The notes under the pieces: generated by a model
The model's input: only the letters and a program-made list of their open reading frames with translations
What the model was told of the DNA's origin: nothing
Databases searched by the model: none
Program-made: the position numbers and the translations under genes
Source: a virus
Virus record (IMG/VR): IMGVR_UViG_3300015245_000044
Coordinates: 1-51,988 of that record
Strand: one strand, 5' to 3'
Length of the DNA stretch: 51,988 nucleotides
Shown here: piece by piece, positions 2 through 9,055 of the stretch
How positions within the stretch are numbered: position 1 is the first letter of the stretch
How the letters are laid out: each line of letters opens with the position of its first letter

Positions 2-169
2 GACCGCTTCGGCGAAGTCCTCAAGATCACTAAGCAACGCAAGAATTTCCCGCCCGGTGCCAATGCGTCGGCAGACGCCAACGGTACGTACATCGAAATC
101 GCCCATATCAAGCTGGACAAGTCGGGCAAGGTTGCTCGCGTTGTCTATGCGGATTGCACCATCGTCTAG
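2..169 (+). CDS. 3' end of an unknown small protein (partial)
   Basis: An open frame enters from the left edge and stops with TAG at 167-169, giving the last 55 residues of a protein whose start lies outside the window. The visible part is mixed polar and hydrophobic with no membrane segment, cysteine motif or recognisable domain. It is followed directly by a structured leader and further small genes on the same strand, so it is probably one more member of that left-end series. Function unknown. Confidence 0.5.
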   Translation, partial: DRFGEVLKITKQRKNFPPGANASADANGTYIEIAHIKLDKSGKVARVVYADCTIV

Positions 170-172
170 CTC

Positions 173-245
173 TCTCGACATCGCTTTGACGGCGGGCGGC
201 AGAAATGCCTACCCGCCTCAAGGCAGTAGAGAGGCAATCATGCCG
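173..245 (+). repeat. structured intergenic leader, family 1, copy 1
   Basis: This 73-nt element recurs at 789-862. It folds as GGCGGG (191-196) with CCCGCC (212-217) enclosing an inner stem GGCA (198-201) / TGCC (206-209) with a GAAA loop. A second hairpin is GGCA (233-236) / TGCC (241-244). In the other copy the inner stem is AGCC/GGCT, so two base pairs change on both sides and pairing is kept. That favours selection on an RNA structure upstream of the gene at 281. A third hairpin, GCCC (250-253) / GGGC (260-263), has the loop GTGACG, also used at 2370-2375. Confidence 0.6.
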
Positions 246-280
246 ATCGGCCCGTGACGGGGCAAAGACGAGGGTACATC

Positions 281-565
281 ATGAAATATAGACTTGAAGT
301 TGATACCGCTTTCAACGTTCGCGCCAAGAAAGGCGAACGCAAGGAGCGCGGCACGGGTCGCCTGATCAAGTGCCAAATCTGGTTTGGCGACGACTTGCAG
401 GACTGCCTTAAGCAGGCGAGTGACAATCGCGCCGCTTGCGAGAAAATCGCCACGCCCGGTTATTCCGAAGTCTTGACGGTTCGGGGATACGATAACGAGA
501 CATTCAAGCGCGATCCGCTTAAGGCGATCCCCGTTTATCAGGCTGCAACCTTGGCGAGGGCGTAA
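281..565 (+). CDS. unknown 94-aa early protein
   Basis: Starts MKYRLEV at ATG 281, behind the ribosome-site block ACGAGGGTACA (268-278); the same block precedes the gene at 2425, which decides this start over upstream codons. The product is basic near the N-terminus (KKGERKERGTGR) and then mixed alpha/beta with no known motif. The stop is 2 nt before the next gene's ATG at 568, so the two are probably translated together. Function not recognised. Confidence 0.6.
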   Translation: MKYRLEVDTAFNVRAKKGERKERGTGRLIKCQIWFGDDLQDCLKQASDNRAACEKIATPGYSEVLTVRGYDNETFKRDPLKAIPVYQAATLARA

Positions 566-567
566 CC

Positions 568-783
568 ATGTCGCTCCTCGCTTCCATGGATGCCGCCTAC
601 TCCGCCGATCAGGCCTTTGCGCGCGCCTTGCGCGATGCCGGCTTTCCTTCTCGTTGGGAGTGGCACCTCTTTGCCAACGACACGACTAGCTCGGTCGCGC
701 AGGCTTACCGCGCCAAGCTCCTTGCCGAGATCGAAATGCGGGAAGCGTTCACGGTCAAGTATTCCGATATGGTCCCCGCTTAG
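568..783 (+). CDS. unknown 71-aa early protein
   Basis: ATG 568 follows the upstream stop by 2 nt, suggesting coupled translation. The 71-residue product is acidic to neutral, rich in alanine and aromatic residues (SRWEWHLF), and probably helical. No domain recognised. It ends just before the second copy of the family-1 leader. Confidence 0.55.
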   Translation: MSLLASMDAAYSADQAFARALRDAGFPSRWEWHLFANDTTSSVAQAYRAKLLAEIEMREAFTVKYSDMVPA

Positions 784-788
784 GGGCT

Positions 789-862
789 TATCGACATAGG
801 CTTTACGGCGGGTAGCCCCAGGGCTTTCCCGCCTTAAGGCGTTAGAGAGGCAATGACTGCCG
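789..862 (+). repeat. structured intergenic leader, family 1, copy 2
   Basis: This 74-nt copy of the 173-245 element keeps the outer stem GGCGGG (807-812) / CCCGCC (828-833). The inner stem is AGCC (814-817) / GGCT (822-825) with loop CCAG, differing from copy 1 by paired substitutions. The downstream string TAGAGAGGCAAT and a GGCA (849-852) / TGCC (858-861) hairpin are also kept. It precedes the 50-aa gene at 884. Confidence 0.6.
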
Positions 863-883: not shown

Positions 884-1036
884 ATGATCAAAATCACGTT
901 GAACGGTCGCGGCGGGGAACTAGATTGCCGCACGGTCGAGAGAGAGGAAGAGATCAGCAATGCGGTCAAGGACATCGCCCTTAACTGCGTTCTCGCTCCG
1001 GGAGATACGATCACTATCGAAGAAATCGACGAATAG
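884..1036 (+). CDS. unknown 50-aa early protein
   Basis: ATG 884 sits behind ACGAGGATTAAGCGA, a good GAGG ribosome site. The product MIKITLNGRG... is 50 residues with strand-helix-strand character and a very acidic end (TIEEIDE). No known family. It lies between two structured leaders, consistent with the other genes of this series. Confidence 0.6.
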   Translation: MIKITLNGRGGELDCRTVEREEEISNAVKDIALNCVLAPGDTITIEEIDE

Positions 1037-1118: not shown

Positions 1119-1991
1119 ATGCAAATTCTTAAAGGTCATATCTCGGCGGAGACCGCTTTCGTGGTCGATGATTATCCATATGGGTTTGCGCTGCGCTGCA
1201 AAATCCGTTACTGGATTGAGTACAAGCCCAAGATGGGTTTCCGCTTCGTTAGCCAAACGACCAACCCGAAACGCCCGGGCGAGATTTGGAACAAGCCCAA
1301 AACCTCGACTTATTCGCGGTTCGGCGCGGCGCTATATCTCGACGATAAGGGCCATGTCCAATGGGCAGGCTTGTCCGAGTACTGCGATGGGAAAGAGGCC
1401 CAGGCGTTTTTGGATACCTACGGCGAGGGCGTTTCCCCCGATGGAATGACGCTCTTGCGCAAGTGGGTTGCTTCAAAGCTGGCCTATGACGCCAATCGGC
1501 AGAAAGGCGACCCGTTATCGGTTGGCTTGGTTGAGGCCCGTCGCGCGTTCGCGGAGACGGCAATTCGCGTTGTCCGGGTCTTTGATCCCCGGCAGGACAA
1601 TAAGCTGATCGCGCGACATGATCGCGTCGCCCGCGAATTGAACCATCGGGAAGTCTTGGAGCGTTTCGGCATTGCCGAGCATTTGCGGGTCACTGATGGC
1701 GATGAGATCAGCGACGGCGCCGTTATCCAGCGCGGCACGGAAGGGCAATCCGTGGTCCGATATGTCGGGACCTATGTCAACGGAGACGGCATGCGGACTC
1801 TAATGACGCCCGCGCAAGGTCGTCATACCTATGCTACGCGCGAGGAGGCGCAGGCATGGGTTGACGCGGTCACGAGCAATAATAGCGGCAGCACCATCCG
1901 CGATGTATGGGGCGATAACCCGCGTTTCGAAGTGCGGCCTTGCCCATGTTGGTCCGGTCACTTTGACCCGCAAAACGTGTGGTTTGACTGA
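1119..1991 (+). CDS. unknown 290-aa early protein
   Basis: The largest gene of the left-end series. ATG 1119 follows AATCGAGGACAATATCT, a GAGG site. The protein has no membrane segment. The N-terminal 100 residues look beta-rich (FRFVSQTTN, FGAALYLDD). Residues around 235-260 (YATREEAQAWVDAV) resemble a helical region of the kind seen in many phage and plasmid hypotheticals. The C-terminus carries a CPCW pair that could help bind a metal, though the other ligands are not evident. No function can be assigned. Confidence 0.7.
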   Translation: MQILKGHISAETAFVVDDYPYGFALRCKIRYWIEYKPKMGFRFVSQTTNPKRPGEIWNKPKTSTYSRFGAALYLDDKGHVQWAGLSEYCDGKEAQAFLDTYGEGVSPDGMTLLRKWVASKLAYDANRQKGDPLSVGLVEARRAFAETAIRVVRVFDPRQDNKLIARHDRVARELNHREVLERFGIAEHLRVTDGDEISDGAVIQRGTEGQSVVRYVGTYVNGDGMRTLMTPAQGRHTYATREEAQAWVDAVTSNNSGSTIRDVWGDNPRFEVRPCPCWSGHFDPQNVWFD

Positions 1992-2019: not shown

Positions 2020-2059
2020 TTAACCACTTTTAAACGATTTGGCATATAATGGGGCCGAA

Positions 2060-2134
2060 ATGCAGCAATGAGGCTGCATAGGGCGTTGAAATCGCCCCTG
2101 ACGATGGCCGTCAGCACGATGGGGAACATAGGCG
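2060..2134 (+). repeat. structured intergenic leader, family 2, copy 2
   Basis: Three hairpins: ATGCAGC (2060-2066) / GCTGCAT (2073-2079); GGGCG (2081-2085) / CGCCC (2093-2097); and the conserved CTGACG-ATGGC-CGTCAG. The string at 2097-2116 is identical to 1076-1095, whereas the two upstream hairpins keep only their architecture. It precedes the small membrane-protein pair. Confidence 0.5.
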
Positions 2135-5596: not shown

Positions 5597-6156
5597 GCTG
5601 GCGCGTCTCCGCGATCCTGCGCGTATTCATCAGCCTTGCGGATAAGCCGCGCCAGCCGCTCGGGATTGGCGCGGTATTCCGCAATGACCTCGTCCCAGCT
5701 TTTCGCTTTCGCGGGCGGCGGCTTCGCGGCCATCGGCGCCTCAGCGAGGCCCCAGTTCTCGCCGTACTTGGCTTTCAGCTCTTCCATGCTGGGCCGCTCC
5801 TCGCGCGGCGCCTCAAGCATGGGCGCTTCGTTGCGCTTGCCCCAGGTCTGCAAGCGCGTCAGCCGGGCCTTGTCCTGCATGCGCTGGTCGCAGGCCTCGA
5901 CAATTTCCGCGATCGTCGGCGGCCATTTGCAGGAACGTTGAACGCCGGTCCTCGGGTCGGTGACCCAAACGATGACGTCATTTGGGTATTGCTCCAAGAC
6001 GACTCCAAGGCTCGTCAGGTAGCCCTCCGGGTCGCTATACTGATCGTTTCGAAACGCGGAGAATAGGATTCGCTGGCGCTGCAAGATCAGCGTCTTGCGA
6101 CTGTTCAAGCGCTCGGTCGAGCGCGGCGAGGAGACTTCCGCCTTTAGCTTTTCCAT
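5593..6156 (-). CDS. unknown replication-region protein
   Basis: From ATG 6156 (MEKLKAEVS) the product is 187 aa. A central part (FRNDQYSDPEGYLTSLGVVL and WPPTIAEIVEACDQR) resembles loader-like proteins found beside DUF1376-type initiators in phages, where they are thought to recruit helicase; this is inference from context. The start overlaps the upstream gene by about 120 nt, unusually long. A later non-ATG start is possible, but the residues before YSDPEGYL are plausible coding sequence. Confidence 0.55.
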   Translation of the reverse strand: MEKLKAEVSSPRSTERLNSRKTLILQRQRILFSAFRNDQYSDPEGYLTSLGVVLEQYPNDVIVWVTDPRTGVQRSCKWPPTIAEIVEACDQRMQDKARLTRLQTWGKRNEAPMLEAPREERPSMEELKAKYGENWGLAEAPMAAKPPPAKAKSWDEVIAEYRANPERLARLIRKADEYAQDRGDAPA

Positions 6157-8615: not shown

Positions 8616-9055
8616 GCGTCATCTCGCAGCGGTTTGAAATTCGCGTGCTGTAAGCCCTGATCGAACATCGGCTCTGGATGTTGCCCGCTGCGCGCGACAT
8701 CCCAGTCCGGGACCGACTTGGCGGATGCTCGCCATAGCGGGAGGTCCGCGACCTTCTCGGTCGCGGCGAGCATGGCGAGGATATGCTGCTGATCGGCCTC
8801 AAGCTCATTGTAGAGCTTGGCGGCGGCGCGCTCCTTGTCCCGGATTTTGACCAGGATGCGGAGTTCCTTGGAGGGGACGCCGGCAGCCTTGGCCTCGTCA
8901 TAGACCGCCTTCTGGCTTTCGCGGATGTTGCGGCAGCGGCTCATATAGCTGGCGCGCTCCGTCATCAGGTCGGTATCGAAGCCGTCGATCTTGCCGAGCA
9001 GAGCGTTGACGGTAACCGGGTCGAAATCGTTAGAGGTGTGCGCGGGTTTTGCCAT
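8612..9055 (-). CDS. GapR-like (DUF2312-type) DNA-binding protein
   Basis: 147 aa. Residues about 17-75 are a charged helical region with VYDEAKAAGVPSKELRILVK, which closely parallels the core of the DUF2312/GapR family (EAKGxGFDxKxxRxIVRLRK). GapR is an alphaproteobacterial protein that clamps overtwisted DNA ahead of replication and transcription. The C-terminal half is longer than in GapR and unlike it. The start overlaps the GcrA-like gene by 26 nt. Assignment is by motif memory only. Confidence 0.55.
   Translation of the reverse strand: MAKPAHTSNDFDPVTVNALLGKIDGFDTDLMTERASYMSRCRNIRESQKAVYDEAKAAGVPSKELRILVKIRDKERAAAKLYNELEADQQHILAMLAATEKVADLPLWRASAKSVPDWDVARSGQHPEPMFDQGLQHANFKPLRDDA

Follow-up and report, generated by a model that had tools for sequence, protein, structure and literature searches.

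The question raised by this locus is what a structured repeat, set between small genes, does for the phage that carries it. The window, meaning the whole stretch of 51,988 nucleotides analysed here (IMG/VR record IMGVR_UViG_3300015245_000044), carries integrase, portal, head and tail genes and, as read from its sequence, is a temperate podovirus-like phage; its host is probably an alphaproteobacterium, to judge from the nearest plasmid-borne integrases. Named phages yielded no close DNA relatives of the window, the plasmid DNA search returned nothing or fragments at chance level only, and protein P0001 was found in none of the plasmids searched.

The original prediction had described two intergenic copies of a left-end leader RNA, at 173-245 and 789-862, with compensatory base changes between them. 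Both copies are present, with stems where they had been placed, and the change of the inner stem from GGCA/TGCC to AGCC/GGCT involves two altered pairs that are both real. The further GGCA/TGCC hairpin, with loops of 4 nt (AUCA) and 5 nt (AUGAC), was likewise confirmed; it corresponds to P4, a separate second hairpin right after a UAG. Two features had been absent from that description: a basal helix, P1 (GCUUUGA/UCAAGGC in copy 1 and GCUUUA/UAAGGC in copy 2, each copy folded alone), and an invariant ACAU. Folding z-scores against shuffles are -5.0 for copy 1 and -3.2 for copy 2. The coordinates are collected in Table 1.

Table 1. Element copies, hammerhead-like RNAs and neighbouring genes in the window.
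Feature	Position	Strand	Details
Stop codon TAG of truncated upstream gene	167-169	+	8 nt before ACAU of copy 1
Element copy 1, core	178-244	+	77.6 bits (covariance model)
Copy 1, ACAU	178-181	+
Copy 1, P1	183-189/218-224	+
Copy 1, P2	191-196/212-217	+	GGCGGG/CCCGCC
Copy 1, P3	198-201/206-209	+	GGCA/UGCC, loop GAAA
Copy 1, linker	226-229	+	GUAG
Copy 1, P4	233-236/241-244	+	GGCA/UGCC, loop AUCA (4 nt)
Gene behind copy 1	281-565	+	94 aa; no Pfam match
Gene in front of copy 2	568-783	+	71 aa; stop codon 781-783, 10 nt before ACAU
Element copy 2, core	794-861	+	77.4 bits (covariance model)
Copy 2, ACAU	794-797	+
Copy 2, P1	800-805/835-840	+
Copy 2, P2	807-812/828-833	+
Copy 2, P3	814-817/822-825	+	AGCC/GGCU
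Copy 2, linker	842-845	+	UUAG
Copy 2, P4	849-852/858-861	+	loop AUGAC (5 nt)
Gene behind copy 2	884-1036	+	50 aa
Type-II hammerhead-like RNA	1036-1093 (Rfam match 1036-1095)	+	RF02276, 27.3 bits (gathering threshold 37)
Gene behind hammerhead-like RNA	1119-1991	+	73%-identical homologue in G009 (L176)
Second type-II hammerhead-like RNA	2053-2114	+	stems I and III differ; core and 3' hairpin the same

Relatives were found through patterns and covariance models. A first pattern, the 3' core AAGGCNNTAGAGAGGCAAT, matched seven loci, one of which was real (L007); in this copy every stem letter differs from the window and the 1x2 internal loop is identical. The matches of the early 3' core patterns were mostly due to chance and were discarded by folding, and relaxing the GGC of the core brought no additional loci. 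Patterns combining the invariant ACAU with a free hairpin led to L078, L090/L116 and L105, with folding separating chance matches clearly. A covariance model built on six copies (R1) recovered additional copies in each of these contigs, and a structural pattern drawn from the R1 copies pointed to 16 more contigs, 15 of which hold copies according to the model. The total reached with the covariance model is 49 copies in 20 IMG/VR phage records, window included, with 2-5 copies in most records, and every copy is intergenic, lying between two genes of an operon. The covariance-model search proposed with the original prediction has accordingly returned many homologues with further compensatory changes. 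The element was found in viral records only: a pattern scan of genomes gave two matches, both chance, and a model designated R2, applied to 398 Pseudomonadota genomes, gave five weak partial matches of 27-29 bits that were judged chance.

The element has a constant layout: the stop codon of the preceding gene is followed, after a spacer of about 8 nt, by ACAU, and then come an irregular hairpin, NKUAG, P4, the ribosome-binding site and the start codon. The irregular hairpin consists of P1, a Y·U mismatch, a P2 of exactly 6 bp, a 1x2 internal loop and a P3 of 3-4 bp, and is usually closed by a GNRA or UUCG loop. Constant features are ACAU, the 6-bp P2 with its invariant or near-invariant end pairs, the Y·U mismatch below P2, the Y/(U,C)(A,U) loop above it, and NKUAG, with the sequence of P2 and P3 free and their pairing kept. 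In the alignment of 49 copies (48 distinct), which was fitted to the structure and so favours the covariation result, standard pairs fill 95.5% of cells; 14 of the 15 pairs show changes on both sides, a number reached by none of 500 shuffles; double-change cells number 146, where shuffles give 42.5; and covariation scores 0.604, compared with 0.192 ± 0.014 when shuffled and at most 0.149 when slid. An earlier MAFFT alignment of six copies gave the same picture, with eight pairs double-changed and 0 of 500 shuffles reaching that level. U-G pairs lie in the gene-sense strand (22 at columns 17-55, for example) and would be C-A mismatches on the opposite strand; the folded molecule is therefore the sense RNA. 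Selection for RNA structure, which two copies had first suggested, is strongly confirmed; we regard the element as a module of about 70 nt that acts in cis as RNA of the sense strand.

In most copies P4 begins directly at UAG or a short way after it, and its stem changes freely around a loop that is often AUNNC; a few copies lack P4 or deviate from ACAU/UAG. Copies within one phage tend to share a P4 loop on different stems (UUGCCG; AACACC; AUGGC, in L189, L173, L176), as if the loop were read by a phage-specific partner. Near position 6201 of L180, on the reverse strand, a gap contains ACAUC-CAAUC-AUUUAG-P4 with the first hairpin missing and is apparently an element that lost P1-P3.

Rfam 15 gave no matches at its gathering threshold in the window and 12 element-bearing loci, and nothing convincing at the element below that threshold; RNA-family matches elsewhere reported by 'evalue' were dismissed as noise. 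The element is an RNA family absent from Rfam 15, although of a known kind, the phage intercistronic structured RNA. It was rejected as a hammerhead, since the aligned copies lack the core that defines one (CUGANGA and GAAA with a UH cleavage site at a three-way junction) and have no Rfam hammerhead match, and its conserved unpaired set (ACAU, Y·U, the C/UA loop and NKUAG) matched no known ribozyme core. An intrinsic terminator was discarded because no U run follows P2/P3 or P4 in the copies listed. The 20-nt core had suggested a promoter for a single-subunit RNA polymerase, an idea set aside because that core is a paired, covarying strand; no polymerase of this type was identified among the large ORFs of the window. 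Leader peptides starting from the ATGs at 240 and 853 were also dropped, as L007 does not conserve them. A strong intergenic hairpin at 2354-2390 of the window, GGCCCGGCAGG..CCUGCCGGGCC, has no U run and is unlike both the element and the hammerhead.

The tightest constraint on the element concerns its position. In 25 copies ACAU follows the stop codon of an open frame at a distance of 8 nt, and in 12 copies at 9 nt, together 37 of the 49 copies, and nearly all remaining distances are 6-14 nt; the start codon lies anywhere between 65 and 108 nt from ACAU. Because the stop codon was absent from the search models, this spacing constitutes independent evidence. A ribosome whose A site holds a stop codon also covers the next 9-10 nt or so of the message, so the element starts about where the footprint ends. 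The genes behind elements are mostly small and mutually unrelated, one of them being, as read from sequence, an ArdC-like protein gene. Several homologues stand behind -35-like TTGAC leaders without the element (promoters judged by eye), among them the ArdC-like gene in L007, L180, L184 and L185 and P0001 in L009; the L009 homologue of the gene at 281-565 follows a TTGACA leader and lacks the element. The RNA therefore belongs to the intercistronic gap and not to a gene. Calling it a leader was half right: it does precede the next gene, but it is tied to the upstream stop at least as much as to the downstream gene and is absent in front of several homologous genes that follow a promoter. Its left-end location is an accident of where the linear contig starts. 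The two functions originally suggested, an RNase processing site or a translation-control leader, are compatible with the data, which single out neither.

The functional comparison closest at hand lies in the same window, where an Rfam scan at a relaxed threshold produced a Hammerhead_II match. This RNA combines GGCC GAAA with CUGACGA, has a predicted cleavage site between UA and G at 1059/1060, and ends in a 3' hairpin, CUGACG-AUGGC-CGUCAG. Self-cleavage is a known property of phage and prophage hammerheads carried by polycistronic RNAs, and bacterial polycistronic hammerheads, among them one from an ardA region of phage origin in Agrobacterium, cleave both in vitro and inside E. coli (PMC3088659). 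The gene at 1119-1991 has a hammerhead leader in the window and an element leader in its G009 homologue (73% amino acid identity), the only clear leader exchange found. G009 carries the element and a type-II hammerhead in one operon. Its P4 loop is AUGGC on unrelated stems in five of five copies (four extracted by script, the one at 8823 by eye), and its hammerhead terminates in CUGAUG-AUGGC-CAUCAG with the same loop, hammerhead AUGGC loops being partly ascertained by the search pattern. Leader exchange, shared operon and AUGGC loop are the main reason for assigning both RNA classes the same job. Like type-II hammerheads (RF02276; PMC3088659), the element is multicopy, lies between phage-operon cistrons, serves the same gene family (window and G009) and, in G009, has a 3' hairpin loop AUGGC; it differs in lacking their core and Rfam match, in having one long hairpin in place of stems I and III, and in its tighter stop-codon spacing.

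From the co-location of two ribozyme classes it has been predicted that self-cleaving RNAs of any class may turn up at such sites (PMC10085705). The same argument makes the element a candidate ribozyme, or failing that a candidate processing element. Our tentative reading, to which we give somewhat less than an even chance, is that it would do the hammerhead's job as a processing or insulating RNA, separating the cistrons of the polycistronic message through a cleavage that we infer. Inserted between consecutive cistrons and starting just outside the ribosome footprint on the preceding stop, the element would be cut, most likely by itself and otherwise by an RNase acting on it. The upstream message would then end a short way after its stop codon, and the downstream message would carry the stable P4 hairpin at its 5' end or close to it, before the ribosome-binding site. 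A more specific proposal, which we regard as rather doubtful, is a new class of small self-cleaving ribozymes that would be interchangeable with type-II hammerheads and cut 8 nt behind stops, with the shared 3' hairpin (loop AUNNC) capping the downstream message. Should the element be self-cleaving, it would represent a new ribozyme class; as it stands, the evidence for a structured RNA family is good, and its copies occupy gaps of the kind that also hold phage hammerhead ribozymes. The leader exchange, together with the fixed 8-nt stop spacing, makes the question of why phages place ribozymes between genes directly testable.

Other explanations have to be weighed against this reading. It is unlikely that the RNA is not catalytic and is processed at this site by RNase III of the host or by some other ribonuclease of host or phage. 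The sites that RNase III processes in T7 are irregular hairpins between early genes, upstream of ribosome-binding sites. The element resembles them as an intergenic irregular hairpin, with an asymmetric internal loop, that recurs in numerous intercistronic gaps immediately ahead of ribosome-binding sites and is free to change the sequence of P2/P3 while pairing is kept. However, its exact 6-bp P2 with (near-)invariant ends, its conserved Y/UA loop and its conserved single-stranded ACAU and NKUAG go beyond the expected needs of a double-strand cutter, the helix has no more than about 15-16 bp in all, and the second hairpin also sets it apart from the T7 sites. The idea of a mere DNA repeat, or of a palindrome arisen by chance, with no function as RNA could be entertained while just two copies in the window were known, but is refuted by 49 copies with double compensatory changes, U-G pairs on one strand, operon-sense orientation and a fixed stop distance.

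An antitermination RNA of the nut or put (HK022) type, acting on RNA polymerase with P4 as a phage-specific, boxB-like hairpin, is improbable. The 5' strand of P1 in L007 and L105 is CGCUCUUA, which we take to resemble lambda boxA, and the GNRA-type hairpin loops and the P4 loops common to copies within a phage point the same way. That strand is nevertheless paired in P1, where boxA would be single-stranded, it covaries away with compensation (CGUUCCCA in L189 4724), and there is no separate boxB, so that a lambda-type nut site was rejected. Similarity to HK022 putRNA, which antiterminates via the beta' zinc-binding domain, extends to a length of about 70 nt, two adjacent hairpins of which the first is irregular, and occurrence in early-type phage operons (PMC9378689). 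Yet put sites are described as lying downstream of early promoters, one per operon on each side, whereas the element occurs 2-5 times per record inside operons, 8 nt behind stops in several gaps, and several promoter-proximal homologues lack it. Equally improbable in our view is a translational device in which a ribosome that terminates 8 nt upstream would serve to couple neighbouring genes or to insulate them. Such a role would suit the stop spacing (37 of 49 at 8-9 nt), which fits the ribosome edge, and a C-rich spacer (46% against 29% in control post-stop 8-mers). Pairing between spacer and ribosome-binding site exceeds that of the control 8-mers but not that of shuffled spacers (64 of 100 as low), and the ribosome-binding site and start codon lie outside every conserved helix. 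Masking of the ribosome-binding site by the C-rich spacer (anti-Shine-Dalgarno) was dropped, base composition being its sole support.

The hammerhead-like RNAs themselves are widespread. Forty-six viral stretches (L032-L077) contain the 18-nt string CCTGACGATGGCCGTCAG, mostly within type-II hammerhead-like RNAs just before start codons. Phage intergenic RNAs of this type score 27-31 bits against the Rfam threshold of 37, and at the gathering threshold Rfam matched none of 16 hammerhead-like loci. Many have an extra U after CUGANGA, an insert partly ascertained by the search pattern, which biases its frequency. Their 3' end can pair as CUGANG/CNUCAG, mutually exclusive with the ribozyme core, as seen at L176 ~6041-6103 (-), L069 603 (+), L045 4720 (reverse-strand count) and L076 2668 (+). 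Where C7 is replaced by U, G is replaced by A (CUGAUG/CAUCAG); in L045 and L076 the loops are larger and the pairing is still kept. It may represent a hairpin of the cleaved product, which would prevent reversal of the cleavage and cap the downstream message.
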